Assembly (NCBI RefSeq): GCF_001078375.1
Contig: NZ_BBXI01000003.1
Span: 1 to 64,000, forward strand
Source of the DNA: Veillonella tobetsuensis
GTDB taxonomy: Bacteria; Bacillota; Negativicutes; Veillonellales; Veillonellaceae
Reading direction: 5' to 3'
DNA length: 64,000 nt
The translations under genes and the position numbers were made by a program. The notes below the pieces were generated by a model that made no database searches, was not told where the DNA came from, and saw only the letters and a list, made by a program, of their open reading frames with translations. Positions within the stretch are counted from its first letter, which is position 1; each line of letters begins with the position of its first letter. Positions 20,454-62,576 of this stretch are shown here, piece by piece.

Positions 20454-21431
20454 ATGACAAAAAAAATTGCAATTATCGGTACTGGTGGCACTATTGCGGG
20501 ACAAGGTGCTTCAGATACAGATTTGACAGGCTACACAGCAGGCGTATTACCCTTGGAAGACATCATCTCCTCTGTGCCTGGTGTTAGAGAATATGGCCCG
20601 TTTGTATGTAATCAGTTCGCTAATATTGAAAGCTCTGATATTTCCCTATTTCAATGGGTGAGATTATCTAAATTAGTACAAAAATGTGTAGATAATGATG
20701 ATATTGAAGGCGTTGTAATTACACATGGTACAGATAGCATGGAGGAAACTGCATATTTCTTACATCTTACGGTACATACAGATAAGCCAATTGTTATTAC
20801 TGGCTCCATGCGTCCCGCCGGTGCGGTGAGCGCAGATGGTCCTATTAATTTGTTGCAAGCAATCCAAGTAGCCCGTACACCAGCCTCTTATAATAAGGGG
20901 GTACTAGTCGTTCTCAATGGCTATATCGATGGTGCTCGGGACGTGACAAAGATGAATACTACTAATGTGGCGACCTTCGGTAGTCCCAATTCTGGCCCCC
21001 TTGGTATCGTACAAGATGGTGTGGCCCATTATTACACAAGCCCATTGCGCAAGCATACTATGGCATCAGAGTTTGGATTACCAGCGGATGACGATTTGCC
21101 GCGTGTAGAAATCTTGACCTGTTATGCGGGCATAGAAGAAATTGTGGGGCTTGCTATTGTAGCCACAAACCCGGCAGGCTTAGTTTTAACTGGTCTAGGT
21201 CATGGTACAATTCCACAAACTATTCGTAAGGTAACATCTAATTTGCCAATACCGGTTGTGAGAGCATCACGTACGGGAAGCGGTATTGTTTCTAAAGTTC
21301 CACAAGATAAGGACGCAGGTTATTTTGTGAGTGATAGTTTATCACCACAAAAAGCACGTATCTTATTGATGCTAGCATTACAAAAAGAACGTACATGTAA
21401 AGACTTGGAGAGAATTTTCCAAGAGTATTAA
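20454..21431 (+). CDS. ansA: L-asparaginase (cytosolic type)
   Basis: A 325-residue asparaginase. First catalytic Thr in GTGGTIAG; second motif VVITHGTDSMEETAY, then VVLNGYIDGARDVTKM. No signal peptide, so cytosolic. The start at 20454 is chosen because GGAGG ends 5 bases upstream; a GTG at 20442 and ATG at 20451 are alternatives. Lies 19 bases after nadE and probably shares its transcript; a terminator follows. Confidence 0.88.
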   Translation: MTKKIAIIGTGGTIAGQGASDTDLTGYTAGVLPLEDIISSVPGVREYGPFVCNQFANIESSDISLFQWVRLSKLVQKCVDNDDIEGVVITHGTDSMEETAYFLHLTVHTDKPIVITGSMRPAGAVSADGPINLLQAIQVARTPASYNKGVLVVLNGYIDGARDVTKMNTTNVATFGSPNSGPLGIVQDGVAHYYTSPLRKHTMASEFGLPADDDLPRVEILTCYAGIEEIVGLAIVATNPAGLVLTGLGHGTIPQTIRKVTSNLPIPVVRASRTGSGIVSKVPQDKDAGYFVSDSLSPQKARILLMLALQKERTCKDLERIFQEY

Positions 21432-44326: not shown

Positions 44327-46159
44327 ATGTGCGGTATCGTAGGATACATTGGCTTTAATCAAGCATCTGATTTCTTATTGGACGGTATGGCGAAATTAGA
44401 ATACCGTGGTTATGATTCTGCAGGCATCGCTGTTATCGGCCCTGAAAATGCAATCAAAATTCAAAAAAAGGTTGGCCGTCTAGCTAATCTTGAGGCGATT
44501 GTAAAAGCAGATCCTAATGAAGGGACTGTAGGTATTGGTCATACTCGTTGGGCTACTCATGGTCGTCCATCCGATATGAACGCCCATCCTCACTCCTCTG
44601 AAGATGGTAAATTTGCTGTTGTTCACAACGGTATTATTGAAAACTACATGCCTTTAAAAGAAGAGCTCATCGAAAAAGGGTACCATTTCAAATCTGAAAC
44701 TGATACAGAAGTAGTAGCTCATTTATTAGAGGATATGTACGATGGCGATTTCGTGGGTACTGTACGCCGCATGCTTGCTCGTGTTGACGGTGCGTATGCT
44801 CTTGAAATCATCTGTGCTGATGAGCCAGACAAAATCATTTGTACTAAAAAAGAAAATCCATTGGTTATCGGTCTTGGTAAAGGTGAAAACTTTGTAGCAT
44901 CCGATATTCCAGCGATCATTAACTACACACGTGATACATACATCTTGAGCGATGGTGAAATGGCTATCGTTACTCGCGATACTGTATCCGTATTTGACCG
45001 TGAAGGTAATCCAGTTGATAAAGAAGTATTCCACGTAAGCTGGAATGCAGAGGCTGCTGAAAAAGGCGGTTATGAACACTTCATGTTGAAAGAAATTCAT
45101 GACCAACCTAAAGCTGTACGCGATACATTCGGTACGCATATCTCTGAAGATGGTAAAACAGCAATCTTTGATGAGTTGAATTGGACTGCTGAAGATGTAG
45201 CAGCTTTCAACAAAATCCTCATCGTTGCATGTGGTACAGCATACCATGCAGGTCTTGTAACAAAACAATATATTGAAAACTTGGCGCGCATTCCTGTAAA
45301 TGTGGAAATTGCATCTGAGTATCGTTACAGCAATCCGTTGACTGATGAAAAAACATTATGTATCGTTATCAGTCAATCCGGTGAAACATCTGATACATTG
45401 GCAGCGTTGAAAGAGGCTAAACGTCATGGCGCTAAATCCTTGGCAATTACAAACGTAGTAGGTTCCAGTATTTCCCGTGAAGCAGATAACACTGTGTACA
45501 CATGGGCAGGTCCTGAAATCTCTGTAGCGTCTACAAAAGCGTATGCGACTCAATTAGTAGCAGGCTTGTTGTTCGCTGTATACCTTGGCCAATTAAATGG
45601 TAAAATGGATCCGGGTTTAGGAGCAGAAATCCTTTGCGGTGTTAAAAACTTGCCTACATTGATTCATGAAATCTTTGAAGTAGACGAAGATATGAAAGCC
45701 TTTGCAAAACATTATGGCTTCAAATCTGATGCGTTCTTCTTGGGTCGTGCTATCGACTATGCAGTAGCGATGGAAGGTGCTTTGAAATTGAAAGAAATTT
45801 CTTACATCCATGCTGAAGCATATGCTGGTGGCGAATTGAAACATGGTACATTGGCTCTTATTGAAGAAGGCGTACCTGTTATCGCATTGGCTACACAAGA
45901 AGATGTGTACGATAAGATGATCAGCAACATCCGTGAAGTAAAAGCTCGTGAAGCTGTTGTAATCGGTATTGGCATGAAGGGTGACGAAGAATTGTCTAAA
46001 CACGTAGACCATACAATCTATGTGCCTCGTGCAAATAAATTCATCGCTCCAATCCTTGCTGTTGTACCATTGCAATTATTGGCGTACTATGCAGCGATTA
46101 CACGCGGTGCAGATGTAGACAAGCCACGTAACTTGGCTAAATCTGTTACTGTAGAATAA
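44327..46159 (+). CDS. glmS: glutamine-fructose-6-phosphate aminotransferase
   Basis: A 610-residue amidotransferase. The N-terminal Cys2 nucleophile (MCGIVGYIG), GHTRWATHG and HNGIIENY form the glutaminase; two SIS domains follow (IVACGTAYHAGL, ISQSGETSDTLAAL, SIS repeat near FFLGRAIDYAVAMEGALKLKE) and the end DKPRNLAKSVTVE is the canonical C-terminus. Makes GlcN6P, the first step toward GlmM's substrate. Controlled by the ribozyme in its leader. Confidence 0.97.
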   Translation: MCGIVGYIGFNQASDFLLDGMAKLEYRGYDSAGIAVIGPENAIKIQKKVGRLANLEAIVKADPNEGTVGIGHTRWATHGRPSDMNAHPHSSEDGKFAVVHNGIIENYMPLKEELIEKGYHFKSETDTEVVAHLLEDMYDGDFVGTVRRMLARVDGAYALEIICADEPDKIICTKKENPLVIGLGKGENFVASDIPAIINYTRDTYILSDGEMAIVTRDTVSVFDREGNPVDKEVFHVSWNAEAAEKGGYEHFMLKEIHDQPKAVRDTFGTHISEDGKTAIFDELNWTAEDVAAFNKILIVACGTAYHAGLVTKQYIENLARIPVNVEIASEYRYSNPLTDEKTLCIVISQSGETSDTLAALKEAKRHGAKSLAITNVVGSSISREADNTVYTWAGPEISVASTKAYATQLVAGLLFAVYLGQLNGKMDPGLGAEILCGVKNLPTLIHEIFEVDEDMKAFAKHYGFKSDAFFLGRAIDYAVAMEGALKLKEISYIHAEAYAGGELKHGTLALIEEGVPVIALATQEDVYDKMISNIREVKAREAVVIGIGMKGDEELSKHVDHTIYVPRANKFIAPILAVVPLQLLAYYAAITRGADVDKPRNLAKSVTVE

Positions 46160-57656: not shown

Positions 57657-58502
57657 ATGAAATTACATACTGCATTAACAATTGCCGGTACTGACCCGAG
57701 TGGTGGCGCTGGCATTATGGCTGATTTAAAATCTTTTCAAAGCCGTAACGTATACGGCATGGCTGTTGTTACGTCCGTGGTAGCTCAAAATACAACGGGT
57801 GTACATCATGTAGAACATTTATCCTTAGAGAGTATAGAAAAACAGTTACACGATGTGTACTCAGATATTATGCCCCAAGCCGTTAAGACGGGCATGATTG
57901 CTTTGCCGGAGATGATGGACCTTATCTATCCTTATGTGCGTAAGGGAATTCCGTATGTAATGGATCCCGTTATGATTGCTACTAGCGGTGATCGACTCGT
58001 ATCGGATGAGGCGGTACATTTCTTAAAATCTAAACTGATTCCTACCGCAACGGTTATTACTCCAAATCGCAGTGAGGCAGAGGTCTTAGCCGATATGTCT
58101 ATCACTTGTGAAAGCGATATCACAACTGCGGCCAATCGTATCTTACAGGACTTAGGTCCTCAAGTGGTCATCATTAAAGGTGGTCATATTGGCGAAGATG
58201 CAACGGATTATGCTTTCACCAAGGATGGTAGTGTTCGTACGTGGACGAGCCCCAAATATGATACTGTGCATACTCATGGAACGGGCTGTACCTTCTCTGC
58301 AGTGATTACGGCGGAGCTTGCAAAGGGCCGTGACGTAATGGATGCCATTGGTATTGCCAAGGACTATATTGCACTTGCCATTAAGCATAATCCTGGGCTG
58401 GGAAATGGCTGTGGTCCCGTTAATCATATGGCTTATGGACTGCTATCTAATGGACCTGAAACAATGGATAAGCTTTTGAAAAGCGATGAGAGGAGACTGT
58501 AA
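57657..58502 (+). CDS. thiD: hydroxymethylpyrimidine/phosphomethylpyrimidine kinase
   Basis: A 281-residue ribokinase-fold enzyme: TALTIAGTDPSGGAGIMADLKSF, VMDPVMIATSGDRL, VITPNRSEAEVLAD, VVIKGGHIGEDATDY and the catalytic Asp region THGTGCTFSAVITAELAKG. Phosphorylates HMP and HMP-P for thiamine synthesis. Start at 57657 after GGAGG; the upstream extension overlaps the riboswitch terminator. Confidence 0.94.
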   Translation: MKLHTALTIAGTDPSGGAGIMADLKSFQSRNVYGMAVVTSVVAQNTTGVHHVEHLSLESIEKQLHDVYSDIMPQAVKTGMIALPEMMDLIYPYVRKGIPYVMDPVMIATSGDRLVSDEAVHFLKSKLIPTATVITPNRSEAEVLADMSITCESDITTAANRILQDLGPQVVIIKGGHIGEDATDYAFTKDGSVRTWTSPKYDTVHTHGTGCTFSAVITAELAKGRDVMDAIGIAKDYIALAIKHNPGLGNGCGPVNHMAYGLLSNGPETMDKLLKSDERRL

Positions 58503-58503
58503 T

Positions 58504-60021
58504 ATGACTCATGAAAATCCATATATGACTGGCCAAACAGGGACAGAACTTAATATATTAGAAACATTGCGTCATCGAAATCCTCTCGTTATTTGTATTA
58601 CCAATGATGTGGTGAGGACCTTTACGGCCAATGGTTTACTTGCTATTGGTGCATCGCCGGTGATGAGCGAATGCAGTGAAGACTTGAAAGACCTCATCGT
58701 TCACGCCTCAGCACTACTCATCAACATCGGTACTGTTACACCAGATAAGGCCGATTATTATAAAGAGGTTACCAAACTTGCAAAGGATCATGAGGTGCCT
58801 ATCGTTCTTGATCCAGTAGGCTGTCATGCAGGGGCTTACCGCTTGTCTGTGGTTTTAGATTTGATTAAAACTGGTTCTATTTCATTGCTTCGTGGAAATC
58901 AAAGCGAAATTAAAGCGATTTACGATGCCCTAAGTGCTAATGATGAGAGTGACAATTCTACTACCGGCAAGGGTGTAGATGGGGCACAGATTGAGGATAG
59001 TGCCGTTATTGCCTATCGACTATCTCGTCTAATTAATTGTCCTGTCGTAGCAACGGGAGAAGAGGATTATGTTTCTGATGGAACTCGCGTATTTGCAGTA
59101 CCTCACGGACATCCTATTATGACTGCTGTAACGGGCACAGGCTGTTTATTGGGCGCTGTGTTGGCGGCTTTCTTTAGTGCCTATTATCCCTTTAAAAATC
59201 AAATGCCTATGGCAGAATTCATTGCCTACGCACTAGCATACTATGGTCTTGCTGGTGAAAGGGCCGTTAAAGAATGTGGTATCAAGCCTGGTAGCTTTAG
59301 TGTGGCCTTTATGGATGCCTTATATATACTTGATGATGCAGTACTTTTATCGAAACAGCACATACGACCTATAGTAGTTCCCGATCAATTACAAGTGTAT
59401 TTCATAGCTGGTACACAGGATGTAGGGCTAAACGAAGATCGATTGCTAGCTGTTGTAGAAGCGGCCTGTCGGGGTGGGGTGACCTGTTTCCAATTTAGAG
59501 AAAAGGGAACGGGTACCTTAGAAGGTAAACAAAAATTAGAACTAGCTCAACAGTTAAAACAAGTCTGTGCCATGTATAACGTACTTTATATTATCAACGA
59601 TGATGTAAATTTAGCCATTGCGGTTCATGCTGATGGTGTCCATGTCGGACAGGAAGATATGAAGTTAGAACAGGTGCGTAATCTTGTAGGGCATACAGTG
59701 GTAGGCATATCTATTCACTCTGTGGAGGAGCTGCATAAGACAGATGTGGTTTATGCAGACTGTGTAGGCGTAGGCCCTATGTACGCTACAAGCAGTAAGT
59801 CTGATGCACAAGAACCATGCGGACCAGCTAGAATTACTGAACTACAAGCAGCAGGGCTAACATTACCTTGTGTTGGGATAGGTGGTATTACTTTAGATAA
59901 TACGAAATCTATATTACAAGCAGGGGCCTGTGGTGTGGCCGTTATATCTGCTATCGCTCATGCAGAAAATCCTTATGAAGCAGCACAACAATTTAAAGGA
60001 TTGATAGATAGCGGAAAATAA
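58504..60021 (+). CDS. thiM/thiE: ThiM-ThiE fusion: hydroxyethylthiazole kinase + thiamine-phosphate synthase
   Basis: A 505-residue two-domain protein. Residues ~15-285 are ThiM (NPLVICITNDVVRTFTANGL, ASPVMSE, VLDPVGCHAG, AVTGTGCLLGAVLAAFFS). Residues ~298-505 are ThiE (VYFIAGTQD, GGVTCFQFREKGTG, YIINDDVNLAIAVHADGVHVGQEDM, GVGPMYATSSKSDA, LPCVGIGGI). One chain thus phosphorylates the thiazole and joins it to HMP-PP. Start at 58504, after GAGGAG and 1 base after thiD. Confidence 0.92.
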   Translation: MTHENPYMTGQTGTELNILETLRHRNPLVICITNDVVRTFTANGLLAIGASPVMSECSEDLKDLIVHASALLINIGTVTPDKADYYKEVTKLAKDHEVPIVLDPVGCHAGAYRLSVVLDLIKTGSISLLRGNQSEIKAIYDALSANDESDNSTTGKGVDGAQIEDSAVIAYRLSRLINCPVVATGEEDYVSDGTRVFAVPHGHPIMTAVTGTGCLLGAVLAAFFSAYYPFKNQMPMAEFIAYALAYYGLAGERAVKECGIKPGSFSVAFMDALYILDDAVLLSKQHIRPIVVPDQLQVYFIAGTQDVGLNEDRLLAVVEAACRGGVTCFQFREKGTGTLEGKQKLELAQQLKQVCAMYNVLYIINDDVNLAIAVHADGVHVGQEDMKLEQVRNLVGHTVVGISIHSVEELHKTDVVYADCVGVGPMYATSSKSDAQEPCGPARITELQAAGLTLPCVGIGGITLDNTKSILQAGACGVAVISAIAHAENPYEAAQQFKGLIDSGK

Positions 60022-60054
60022 TCAAAGAAATCTTTAAGCGTTTATAGAACACAA

Positions 60055-60085
60055 AAAAGACGATGACCGAAGTCATCGTCTTTTT
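60055..60085 (+). terminator. terminator of the thiamine operon
   Basis: AAAAGACGATGAC-CGAA-GTCATCGTCTTTTT. Confidence 0.85.
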
Positions 60086-60119
60086 ATTTGAGGGTGTCTG
60101 TACATACAGTTAGGAAAAT

Positions 60120-60131
60120 CTGCACTTGCAG
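60120..60131. repeat. outlying copy of the ACTT-loop hairpin
   Basis: CTGC-ACTT-GCAG, same core and orientation as the array at 60786-60995, but downstream of rubrerythrin. Confidence 0.4.
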
Positions 60132-60183
60132 TCTACATGTCTGTATTTATACTTATTATTTTTGTCTAATCTATGTTTATAGA

Positions 60184-60729
60184 TTATAGAGCTTCAATGT
60201 GACGTTTGAAGAATGCTTGTGGGTGAGCACATACTGGGCATAATTTAGGAGCTTCTTCACCGATGTGAATGTAGCCACAGTTAGCGCAAATCCATGCTAC
60301 AGGTTGATCGTTATTGAATACTTTGTGACCTGCAACGCGAGCTGCTAATGCAAGGTAACGTTCTTCGTGACGAGCTTCGATTTTACCAACTTCGCGCATT
60401 TGGTAAGCGATTTTTGCAAAGCCTTCTTTTTCTGCTTCATCAGCGAAATCTTTGTACATTGTAGTGTGTTCGTAGTTTTCGCCAGCTGCTGCATCACGAA
60501 GGTTAGCTTCGATATCAGCGGAAACATCGCCACCATGAAGAGCTTTGAACCACAATTTAGCATGTGCAGATTCGTTGTGAGCTGTTTCTTCGAAATAATC
60601 AGCGATTTCGTTCATACCAGCTTTGCGAGCTGCTGCTGCGTAGAAAGTATATTTTTGGAATGCTTGGGATTCGCCAGCAAATGCTGCTTGAAGATTTTTT
60701 TCAGTGTTTGTACCTTTTAATTCAGCCAT
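60184..60729 (-). CDS. rbr: rubrerythrin
   Basis: A 181-residue peroxide-detoxifying protein. Diiron ligands lie in AGESQAFQKYTFYA, EETAHNESAHAKLW, AAAGENYEHTTMY and VGKIEARHEERYL; a C-terminal rubredoxin-type site CANCGY...CPVC binds a single iron. Anaerobe oxidative-stress defence in the cytosol. GGAGA ribosome site. Its long leader carries an array of short hairpins. Confidence 0.95.
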   Translation of the reverse strand: MAELKGTNTEKNLQAAFAGESQAFQKYTFYAAAARKAGMNEIADYFEETAHNESAHAKLWFKALHGGDVSADIEANLRDAAAGENYEHTTMYKDFADEAEKEGFAKIAYQMREVGKIEARHEERYLALAARVAGHKVFNNDQPVAWICANCGYIHIGEEAPKLCPVCAHPQAFFKRHIEAL

Positions 60730-60785
60730 TTTTAGATCTCCTTTGTACTTACAATATGTTTTAAATGATTACTTAATTGATATAT

Positions 60786-60995
60786 TCATAACCACTTGGT
60801 TGTGAATGCGATAATTGGTAACTCACTTGAGTTAAGTTAAATAAAAACTTATTTGTAGATTGGTAGATAGACACTTGTCTATACATAAAAAAAGCACTTG
60901 CTTATTAACTAAATGAGTACTTACCTATATTTTGTAAAGAGGCACTTGCCTGTTATTTACAATCCAATGTTTTTGATTCGTATACTTAACGAATA
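60786..60995. repeat. array of seven short hairpins with a constant ACTT/AAGT loop
   Basis: Inverted repeats centred near 60795, 60826, 60874, 60897, 60920, 60945 and 60986 share the plus-strand centre ACTT (mostly CACTTG) but have different paired arms: ATTCATAACC/GGTTGTGAAT, TAACTC/GAGTTA, ATAGAC/GTCTAT, AAGC/GCTT, AGT/ACC (weak), AGGC/GCCT and ATTCGT/ACGAAT. Read in the rubrerythrin direction the loop is AAGU. Located between the proposed rbr promoter and its start, so probably in the mRNA leader. Confidence 0.6.
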
Positions 60996-61010
60996 ATCAT
61001 TGTTGACTAT

Positions 61011-61038
61011 ATTGTATCATACTAAATGAGAAATGCAA
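61011..61038 (-). promoter_or_regulatory. candidate promoter of rubrerythrin
   Basis: Minus strand TTGCAT, 16-base spacer, TACAAT. It would give a leader of about 275 bases that contains the whole hairpin array. Confidence 0.45.
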
Positions 61039-61154
61039 GTGTTTTTGTAAAAATTTATTTCGAAAATTTTCTAAATGATAAATGTTATCAATGTAGTAAA
61101 TAAGCGGTTTTTGAAAGCCTGTTAAGTAATGGATTTATTAAAAATAGAATTACT

Positions 61155-61172
61155 GATAATGAGAATGAGAAT
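61155..61172. promoter_or_regulatory. Fur-box-like hexamer repeat
   Basis: GATAATGAGAATGAGAAT, three NATWAT-like hexamers, followed nearby by AATCATTATT. It lies between rbr and the selD operon; which gene it controls is unclear. No gene was seen in 61040-61332. Confidence 0.4.
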
Positions 61173-61332
61173 TACATGGAAAATCATTATTGTTTGTGGA
61201 ACTGTTTGTTTTTGGTAATAATTCTGATTAAGCTGATAGATCTTATTAGTCAAAGTGTACTTTTACCTATATTGGAGAACATATTTTAAGTATAATAAGA
61301 TATATATAATAGAAATAGTATAAGGAGGCGCT

Positions 61333-61536
61333 ATGGCGTTTATTAGATATTATGTGGGCGATGTAGTGCAAATGAAAAAAGCCCATCCTTGTGGTAGTGA
61401 CGAATGGGAAGTTAAGCGCATCGGCACAGATTTTCTTATCGTATGTAAAGGTTGTGGACATCAATTGTTGATGCCTCGCCCTAAGTTTGAAAAGGCTGCA
61501 AAGAAACTTGTATCTCGTTTGCCTAAACATGAGTAG
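61333..61536 (+). CDS. DUF951 family protein
   Basis: A 67-residue protein: YYVGDVVQMKKAHPCGSDEW, WEVKRIGTDFLIVCKGCGHQ and LMPRPKFEK match DUF951, with conserved Cys/His (HPCG, CKGCGH) that may bind zinc. AAGGAGG ribosome site, 8 bases before selD. Function unknown. Confidence 0.8.
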   Translation: MAFIRYYVGDVVQMKKAHPCGSDEWEVKRIGTDFLIVCKGCGHQLLMPRPKFEKAAKKLVSRLPKHE

Positions 61537-61544
61537 GAGGTCTT

Positions 61545-62576
61545 ATGGTACGACTTACTGACTATGTTACGAGCGGGGGCTGTGCGTGTAAGATTGGGCC
61601 TCATATATTGGAGCGTGTATTGAAATCAGTTACATCTGTAACCAATGAACGAGTTCTAGCAGATATGACAGGGGCTGATGATGCAGGGGTATATAAAATT
61701 TCTGACACATTAGCATTGGTACAGACATTAGACTTTTTTACACCTGTAGTTAATGACCCCGTTTTGTTTGGGAAAATAGCGGCCGCTAATGCACTAAGCG
61801 ATGTATATGCTATGGGAGGAACTCCGTTGACTGCCATGAATATTGTAGGGTTTCCTATATCTCTTGTTGAACAAGGCGTTTTAACAGACGTTCTAAACGG
61901 AGCAGCTTCTATCGTGGCCGAGTCTGGGGCTGCAATCGTAGGCGGTCACAGCATTGAAAACAAAGAGCCTATATTTGGTATGTCTGTAACAGGACAAGTT
62001 GACCCAAATCATATTTGGAAAAATAAAGGTGCCCAAGTAGGGGATGTACTAGTGCTAACAAAACGCATCGGCACAGGTATTATGAATAATGCGTTGAAAG
62101 CTGATTTATTTCCTACTGGTACTGCGCAGGCGGTCGCTAGCATGAGTACGTTGAATCGTGTGGCTGCTGAGGTGGCCCATAATTTTACAATTCATGCGTG
62201 TACTGACGTGACGGGCTTTAGCCTTATGGGTCATTCTGTAGAAATGGCGAGTGCCTCTAATGTAACAATTCATATCAAGACTTATGATATTCCGCTCTTT
62301 GATGATGTCATTGAGGCTGCGCAAATGGGGTTGGTCCCTGCTGCATCCTATGGTAATCGCAAGGCCATAACTGATGTACAGGTTGATGCGAATTTAGATG
62401 GGGTATGGACGGATATTTTCTTTGATCCACAAACATCAGGCGGACTTTTATTCTCTGTGCCTGCTACAGAAGGCGCGGATTTGGTGAAAGCCTTACTTGA
62501 TGTGGGCGTTGAAGGTGCCACTATAGTTGGTGCCGTTGAAAGCTTTAGTGGCTTAGCGGTACGTGTAACTAAATAA
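61545..62576 (+). CDS. selD: selenide, water dikinase
   Basis: A 343-residue AIR-synthase-fold enzyme making selenophosphate. The active-site loop is TSGGCACKIGP (Cys13, Lys16), with Cys rather than selenocysteine; ADDAGVYKI, LDFFTPVVNDP, ANALSDVYAMGG, GGHSIENKEP and DVTGFSLMGH follow. GGAGG ribosome site. Located with yedF and DUF3343, the gene set of selenium-dependent molybdenum hydroxylases. Confidence 0.93.
   Translation: MVRLTDYVTSGGCACKIGPHILERVLKSVTSVTNERVLADMTGADDAGVYKISDTLALVQTLDFFTPVVNDPVLFGKIAAANALSDVYAMGGTPLTAMNIVGFPISLVEQGVLTDVLNGAASIVAESGAAIVGGHSIENKEPIFGMSVTGQVDPNHIWKNKGAQVGDVLVLTKRIGTGIMNNALKADLFPTGTAQAVASMSTLNRVAAEVAHNFTIHACTDVTGFSLMGHSVEMASASNVTIHIKTYDIPLFDDVIEAAQMGLVPAASYGNRKAITDVQVDANLDGVWTDIFFDPQTSGGLLFSVPATEGADLVKALLDVGVEGATIVGAVESFSGLAVRVTK

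Follow-up and report, generated by a model that had tools for sequence, protein, structure and literature searches.

A tandem array of short AAGU-loop hairpins in the predicted untranslated regions of Veillonella rubrerythrin mRNA

The rubrerythrin gene (rbr) of Veillonella tobetsuensis is preceded by a tandem series of short inverted repeats whose arms differ in sequence from copy to copy and still pair, around an AAGT center that stays the same. Judged by comparison among relatives, these are very probably RNA hairpins that would be read by a trans-acting factor. The best explanation of the observations as a whole, to which we assign a probability of roughly 0.5, is an RNA array recognized through its loops, by which rbr mRNA would be controlled in cis and would also titrate the factor. 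The existence of a reader protein, the titration, a link to iron or redox state, and transcription of the array together with its start are inferred. Coordinates refer to the window, meaning the whole 64,000-nucleotide stretch of DNA analyzed here (contig NZ_BBXI01000003.1, positions 1 to 64,000).

The hairpin array at the rbr locus

The 276 nt before the rbr start codon contain ten AAGT words in the sense of rbr, all in the same orientation. On the plus strand they read ACTT, at 60747, 60771, 60794, 60825, 60847, 60873, 60896, 60919, 60944 and 60984, in steps of 24, 23, 31, 22, 26, 23, 23, 25 and 40 nt. The consecutive Watson-Crick pairs around each word, from 60747 to 60984, number 4, 3, 4, 6, 0, 6, 4, 2, 4 and 1. 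Eight of the ten are centers of inverted repeats with 2 to 6 such pairs; the copy at 60847 has no stem, and that at 60984 pairs only with a larger loop. A preliminary description of this DNA had counted about seven inverted repeats at 23- to 48-base steps. The repeats are real, but this was an undercount: there are ten copies at steps of 22 to 40 nt, and those at 60747 and 60771, close to the ribosome-binding site, lie outside the stretch it had delimited. The single extra copy that it placed downstream of rbr, CTGC-ACTT-GCAG, was found at 60120-60131, accompanied by a variant with an ATGT loop (60098-60109) and a weak copy (60151). The features, in the order of the inferred transcript, are as follows.

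61033-61038, minus strand: inferred -35 element of the rbr promoter, TTGCAT; by eye, relatives have TTGCWT or TTGATT at the same place
61011-61016, minus strand: inferred -10 element, TACAAT, with a preceding TG; relatives have TATAAT or TACAAT, then ...CAACAATGATT
60977-60993, minus strand: first hairpin of the leader, with AAGT inside a 7-nt loop on a TTCGT stem; absent from the minimum-energy fold (TTCGTT-AAGT-AACGAA in loci L011-L015)
60940-60951, minus strand: hairpin AGGC-AAGT-GCCT, within a covariance-model match at 60889-60954; present in the fold
60917-60924, minus strand: weak hairpin, AAGT with 2 Watson-Crick pairs; absent from the fold
60892-60903, minus strand: hairpin AAGC-AAGT-GCTT; absent from the fold
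60867-60882, minus strand: hairpin ATAGAC-AAGT-GTCTAT; present in the fold
60847-60850, minus strand: degenerate copy, AAGT without a directly flanking stem
60819-60834, minus strand: hairpin TAACTC-AAGT-GAGTTA; present in the fold
60784-60807, minus strand: hairpin ATTCACAACC-AAGT-GGTTATGAAT, 9 of 10 pairs with one C.A mismatch; present in the fold
60768-60777, minus strand: short hairpin ATT-AAGT-AAT; absent from the fold
60743-60754, minus strand: last leader hairpin, TTGT-AAGT-ACAA, adjoining the ribosome-binding site on its 5' side; present in the fold
60184-60729, minus strand: rbr, rubrerythrin, 181 amino acids (Pfam PF02915 and PF21349)
60151-60154, minus strand: weak 3' UTR copy, AAGT with 2 Watson-Crick pairs
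60120-60131, minus strand: 3' UTR hairpin CTGC-AAGT-GCAG
60098-60109, minus strand: 3' UTR hairpin with a variant loop, CTGT-ATGT-ACAG, identified by eye; the same variant was seen by eye in L008
60054-60085, minus strand: intrinsic terminator of rbr; the hairpins end upstream of it

Seven AAGT words with at least three flanking Watson-Crick pairs occur in the leader (60730-61005), against 0.09 on average and never more than 2 in 2000 dinucleotide shuffles, in which the best count for any tetraloop was no more than 3. The array is the only cluster of more than three hairpins with the same loop in the whole window, and the single AAGT of the opposite strand within the leader (60834, plus strand) lacks a stem. 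Five of the ten copies appear as AAGU-loop hairpins in the minimum-energy fold of the leader (60944, 60873, 60825, 60794 and 60747). The folding z-score is -2.45 for the leader and -2.93 for the opposite strand, which folds equally well, as inverted repeats must; folding energy alone therefore cannot assign the strand.

CRISPR or identical tandem repeats were considered and rejected, as the arms differ and the units are not near-identical. Among the 20 of 44 repeat families that were listed, the array held only two-copy families of 14-21 nt with 75-93% identity, in keeping with the initial view that this is not a CRISPR repeat.

Covariation of the stems and constancy of the loop

Every AAGT, paired or not, was collected from the 330-nt leaders and 200-nt 3' stretches (97 nt in the window) of 23 rbr loci, and the set was reduced to 93 dissimilar 20-mers. 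Pairs 1 to 4 were Watson-Crick in 74, 71, 58 and 56% of these, compared with 33, 25, 26 and 32% expected under independence. All four compositions are found at pair 2 (GC 19, UA 16, AU 16 and CG 15), and 59 of the 69 Watson-Crick closing pairs are of the pyrimidine-purine type. The mean stem was 2.49, versus 0.47 +- 0.08 (maximum 0.82) when the 3' arms were reshuffled 10,000 times. Among the 136 tetraloops represented by 15 or more such 20-mers, AAGT ranked first, followed by GAGT at 1.2, and none of the other 135 tested had comparable covariation. By these measures, stems of about four pairs are kept with their letters free to change, and the AAGU loop is kept letter for letter. This bears out the earlier observation, made on the window, that arms differ yet pair while an asymmetric center stays fixed in one orientation. 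Loss of pairing in relatives, which would have spoken against that description, was not the rule: most relatives keep the pairing with different arms, though one (L017) retains a single hairpin at rbr and another (L018) none.

The rows of two further covariance alignments, A2 and A3, were chosen for pairing, and their pair counts thus lean towards structure; in one of the two counts, two of five measures were not above those of shuffles. The 93-member set described above is free of that choice. Alignment A2 includes 12 of the 19 rows of an earlier triple alignment, A1, which was out of register and was not used.

Inferred transcript boundaries

The window rbr promoter has the spacing TTGCAT-16-TACAAT, from which a transcript start would be expected near 61003-61006; the rbr -10 element was not listed by an automated promoter scan. 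A pattern spanning the promoter and the bases that directly follow it (TTGCWT or TTGATT ... TATAAT or TACAAT ... CAACAATGATTATTC) matched in 21 of the 23 loci, and in the other two, L017 and L020, the promoter was identified by eye. The distance from promoter to start codon ranges from 90 to 391 nt across the family. Hairpins with at least three Watson-Crick pairs number 85 in 4413 nt of leader, compared with none in the directly preceding 6900 nt (23 loci). At the other end, 69 occur in the 3104 nt between gene end and terminator, compared with one in 5511 nt beyond (19 of the 23 loci). For the latter count, L010, L017, L018 and L021, where the rule found no terminator, were left out; a later terminator was chosen in L003, and 10 nt of each gene end were counted inside. 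Copy counts based on another terminator rule, which failed in L020, L021 and L023, were set aside.

The hairpins are confined, insofar as these signals can be predicted, between the inferred rbr promoter and the terminator. A location in the rbr mRNA leader, as first proposed, is supported by the conserved promoter and by the difference between leader and upstream DNA, transcription being inferred. A constant loop, drifting stems, one sense, tandem arrangement and placement within transcript bounds together argue that something reads the loop; transcription, folding and binding of the array are themselves inferences from sequence.

Distribution among rbr loci

A search for rbr yielded 363 loci, of which 80 were kept, among them 22 (L002-L023) from the Veillonella family or its MAGs. 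Copies were counted as hairpins with at least three Watson-Crick pairs in the 330 nt before and the 200 nt after the gene. Nine loci (L002-L010: V. caviae, V. rogosae, V. parvula SKV38, T11011-6, V. denticariosi, V. infantium, V. atypica, V. agrestimuris and one MAG) have 3-9 copies before rbr and 0-3 after it; in these, an AAGT is held 19-21 nt upstream of the ATG. The VA142 group (L011-L015) has 2-3 before and 6-7 after. The ratti/seminalis group (L016, L019-L021 and L023) has 1-2 upstream of the gene and, in the 200 nt that follow it, 3-4, or 4-7 when its longer 3' UTRs are followed to the terminator in the four loci where one was found. V. magna (L022) has none before and two after. The array is nearly absent at rbr of V. 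montpellierensis (L017; one copy before, none after) and absent from L018, a MAG (g2 genome G014). By this count, copy number and side of the gene vary by clade. The leader placement of the preliminary description thus holds for the copies there but is not specific to leaders: the array of several clades falls mostly in the 3' UTR of rbr, and that of V. montpellierensis likely forms a separate non-coding RNA (see below).

Altogether, the UTR stretches of the 22 family loci hold 146 hairpins, and the 58 other rbr loci (L024-L081) hold 5 in 29,719 nt, with at most two per locus. A cluster rule had found none in the latter loci, yet it also missed the arrays in L008-L010, L016 and L019-L021; hence this recount. 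When G-U pairs and a wider stretch were allowed, the 23 loci contained 179 hairpins, 145 of them distinct, and about 95% of the pairing units in this wider set have C or T immediately before the loop. Steps between hairpins in the 23 loci are most often 23-25 nt, and a second cluster of values falls at 28-31.

Several other features of the rbr neighborhood were observed. In all 22 Veillonella-family loci tested, the genes for DUF951 and selD (window 61333-62576) are found upstream of rbr in divergent orientation. Between rbr and DUF951, at window 61154-61175, is GATAATGAGAATGAGAATTA, which we take to resemble a Fur box; the ferredoxin promoters of relatives also hold TAATGAGAA. Tandem repeats of 7 nt with a TATCA core are found about 1.9 kb before rbr in two loci (L005:30-95 and L007:9-75). 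Beside rbr in the window is a 511-amino-acid ORF (58486-60021) that presumably encodes a ThiM-/ThiE-like fusion.

Searches beyond rbr

Two covariance models were used, R1, built on three units, and the broader R2. R1 gave 50 matches spread over 25 sources, and every one of them runs in the same direction as the host gene or inferred transcript; the count includes training rows, and two sources, L022 and L175, are one locus. Matches to R1 or R2 (E 0.5 and E 2) were obtained in 27 of 28 family genomes among the best 86-150 candidates per genome. In 33 other genomes of the order, R1 had no match at E 0.05 under stricter filters and among the best 86 candidates per genome; the same search also missed family genomes G007, G014, G023 and G026, so short arrays would escape it. 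All three R1/R2 matches in the V. tobetsuensis genome at E 0.5 and E 2 fall at rbr, and one more appears at E 10 or below (E 9.07, G000:C8:98451-98512). Including the latter, eight matches at E 10 or below, with E 1.5-9.2, lie outside rbr, ferredoxin and the V. montpellierensis contig described below.

A genome-wide dispersed repeat or uptake signal was also considered and rejected. In 464 kb of the V. tobetsuensis genome (400 kb in stretches, plus the window minus 60100-61000), 11 of 462 AAGT words that were intergenic by an ORF rule have at least four Watson-Crick pairs, and 12 of 605 ATGT words do; AAGT ranks first intergenically, only slightly above ATGT. A triple-AAGT pattern occurs at 38 places in this genome, five of them in the rbr array (the stems of the rest were not scored), versus 146 for the reversed control. 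Because the control is commoner, the pattern alone is uninformative.

No Rfam 15 family matched at gathering score in window 59900-61400 or in loci L157, L004, L020 and L167, which agrees, for these five sequences, with the original remark that no RNA family of this form was known. Nor did a literature search, conducted mostly without subscription papers, find an earlier report of an AAGU hairpin array.

Other hosts of the hairpin

On contig C19 of V. montpellierensis (genome G007), about 1.4 kb contain no ORF of more than 65 amino acids. Within this stretch we predict the following.

G007:C19, about 20585-21345: likely standalone hairpin RNA of about 750 nt, with a promoter-like TTGATA-17-TATAAT before it (by eye) and a strong terminator, a long hairpin and U tract, after it

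About 700 nt of this RNA hold hairpins with AAGT, TAGT and CAGT loops, plus one with GAGT identified by eye. Eight AAGT hairpins have at least four Watson-Crick pairs, compared with a maximum of three for any loop in 1000 shuffles, and the strand, its terminator included, folds better than all 20 shuffles (z -3.84). This stretch is likely a standalone non-coding RNA, a prediction for which there are no expression data, and such a separate RNA was found in this one species only. The gene that faces its end (L157:3118-3603) is of the MarR type, with OhrR as the best NCBIfam match at 180 bits against a cut-off of 200.

In three genomes of the ratti/seminalis group (L167, L168 and L170), the stretch from the stop codon of a PMT-type glycosyltransferase gene to its terminator contains about 3-5 copies. 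This gene follows a PAP2 gene; the families were tested on L167, and the L170 copies were counted by eye.

The third host is a 54-amino-acid 2[4Fe-4S] ferredoxin gene, found at 28 loci in 26 of the 28 family genomes, in which the promoter is directly followed by a hairpin. The loop of this hairpin reads AAGT at 26 of the 28 loci, GTAT in L218 and AGGT in L224 (V. montpellierensis), and its closing position is a U.U mismatch in seven. Covariation of this hairpin was not significant, its score being reached by 59 and its percentage paired by 213 of 500 shuffles; proof is lacking because the arms are too alike. At E 1e-15 the ferredoxin was not found in the V. tobetsuensis genome or in G001. Eight of 18 genomes outside the family have it, all in family f3, and their leaders lack AAGT after the promoter. 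In several of these leaders a hairpin with a different loop stands at the 5' end (three identified by script, others by eye), so the ferredoxin hairpin may be a plain 5' stabilizer. Among the f3 leaders (L242-L248), several carry at this same 5' site a G/C-rich hairpin whose loop differs; the 5' hairpin may predate the AAGU loop.

Two further observations concern these genes. Two genomes of genus g3 carry, besides their own ferredoxin, a second one (L208/L215 on G015:C29, and L216 on G017:C5) that matches the g1 (V. atypica-like) query at 98-100% identity and has a near-identical leader; their rbr is only about 77% identical, and the second gene reflects either contamination or a recent transfer. 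In the V. tobetsuensis genome, a hairpin CAAT-AAGT-ATTG (L184:5282-5293; contig C10, about 45282-45293) lies directly before the ribosome-binding site of a gene for a Cys-rich peptide that resembles a SCIFF precursor. This hairpin is much like the last copy in the rbr leader.

Relation to known RNA systems

In CsrB, a hairpin array forms a separate RNA. The Veillonella array, as read from its sequence and with transcription inferred, resembles the CsrB and RsmY sponges and the CsrA-titrating flaA mRNA in having numerous short hairpins that share a single fixed loop motif. It differs in that the loop is AAGU, GGA is not part of the motif, and sites also occur in 3' UTRs. A profile search (PF02599) of the V. 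tobetsuensis genome gave no CsrA match, the controls being positive in 3 of 14 genomes (E. coli, B. subtilis and T. maritima). Membership in the Csr/Rsm system was rejected because no CsrA was found in this genome and the loop is not GGA, while the sequence does have multiple hairpins with a common loop on one RNA. The array is best read as CsrB-like in logic and not as a Csr member. The flaA mRNA of Campylobacter, which titrates CsrA, resembles it further in that the array lies within an abundant mRNA, as far as the accessible part of that report indicates (PMC4894983).

The array shares features with two other protein-read hairpins. Iron-responsive elements are hairpins of one loop type, several of which may stand in the 5' or 3' UTR of mRNAs for iron proteins, an arrangement like that of the array. 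Unlike them, the array has no CAGUGN loop or bulged C, and its hairpins are mostly Y-AAGU-R. The only aconitase-family match in the V. tobetsuensis genome is a 419-amino-acid 3-isopropylmalate dehydratase large subunit, above the NCBIfam LEU2 cut-off, whose gene adjoins that of 2-isopropylmalate synthase. Membership in the IRE/IRP system was rejected for lack of the CAGUGN loop with its bulged C and of an IRP-like full-length aconitase in this genome. The yeast RNase III Rnt1p is a eukaryotic enzyme whose substrates have long stems. With its AAGU/AGNN substrates, to judge from the limited part of the source that was available, the array shares an AAGU tetraloop read by a protein; the Veillonella stems, in contrast, are 4-bp, tandem and bacterial.

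Structured RNA candidates that are confined, or nearly so, to Veillonella have been described by comparative genomics before ilvD and potE, in a survey of 26 genomes; they show little covariation, and the ilvD motif lacks short repeats, according to the portions available (PMC8632094). The array is alike in its restricted range and differs in being associated with another gene, rbr. Rubrerythrin is absent from the main text of that survey (PMC8632094) and, in the accessible portion, from a study of non-coding RNAs in periodontitis (PMC7160235).

Proposed function and alternatives

We propose that rbr mRNA would carry in its UTRs a series of hairpins of about 4 bp, mostly Y-AAGU-R, separated by A/U-rich linkers. 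An unidentified protein would read the loop and closing pair, not the stem. With many sites per mRNA, the binder would be multivalent, and rbr mRNA would be bound and controlled in cis; the same mRNA would draw the protein away from targets with a single hairpin, such as the ferredoxin leader. The V. montpellierensis array would have left rbr and formed a dedicated non-coding RNA that acts as a sponge. The narrow phylogenetic range suggests that the reader may be a protein of the Veillonella family. As to titration, the available parts of published work report that rbr transcripts are high in oral Veillonella (RME 1577; PMC4374535), which fits a titrating mRNA. Together with the indifference to 5' or 3' position and the apparent standalone RNA, this favors titration in trans on top of action in cis, but whether titration is part of the array's job we judge to be an even question.

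The hairpins could instead bind a protein or nuclease and set the stability or translation of their own mRNA, with no titration in trans, a possibility to which we give appreciable weight, short of a balance. In most of the family the array does accompany rbr, be it on the 5' or the 3' side; AAGT is kept 19-21 nt upstream of the ATG in L002-L010, and the 3' copies precede terminators, where decay signals act. For a purely cis-acting device, it would be odd to be indifferent to side and to be nearly lost at rbr where a likely separate RNA is found, as in V. montpellierensis.

Short hairpins at the 5' or 3' end can stabilize an mRNA, and several f3 ferredoxin leaders keep their 5' hairpin with other loops, so the copies might be plain structural barriers to exonucleases, with AAGU kept merely because it folds well. 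This we consider improbable. Stems of only about 4 bp, often A/U-rich, are poor barriers, and one loop persists in 145 distinct units despite stem drift, and at the V. montpellierensis locus too. The known stable tetraloops are UNCG and GNRA, and the loops used here are not among them. Kissing by a small RNA that carries repeated ACUU-type seeds would likewise suit a 4-nt loop fixed in sequence and orientation; such an interaction would rest on only four base pairs, and we think it quite unlikely. Finally, although inverted repeats lie just downstream of the inferred rbr and ferredoxin promoters, an operator array for a transcription factor can be set aside almost entirely, as the preliminary description had argued for a single DNA operator: the arms, usually what a dimeric factor reads, are free to vary, the center is asymmetric and oriented, no copies occur in the 6900 nt upstream of the leaders, and arrays also occur in 3' UTRs and stop at terminators, where an operator should not.

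Several points weigh against the preferred reading of a loop-read array that acts in cis and by titration. No reader protein has been found, and no expression data are available for the array or the V. montpellierensis RNA. The minimum-energy fold includes only 5 of the 10 window copies, and folding is just as good on the opposite strand. The separate RNA is known from one species, and the array at rbr is nearly absent in L017 and absent in L018/G014. The ferredoxin hairpin has little covariation, other loops in 2 of 28 loci and seven U.U mismatches, and its gene was not found at E 1e-15 in the V. tobetsuensis genome or G001.

Biological significance

Besides Hfq, ProQ and CsrA, we know of few bacterial proteins that read RNA hairpins by their loop, and a literature search, itself weak, found none for Veillonella or the Negativicutes. 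The binding code of the AAGU hairpins may be readable from evolution alone, and the predicted sites are dense enough for a direct pull-down; the natural 5', 3' and apparently standalone versions of the array would allow action in cis and in trans to be separated. In its fullest form the proposal is of a new post-transcriptional regulon of the Veillonellaceae, with an undescribed reader of Y-AAGU-R, rbr mRNA as its sponge, a non-coding RNA taking over this role in V. montpellierensis, ferredoxin and a few other single-site targets, and a tie to iron or oxygen; this we put forward only tentatively, as a possibility with the odds somewhat against it. If true, it would show an anaerobe wiring a main oxygen-defense mRNA into wider control.
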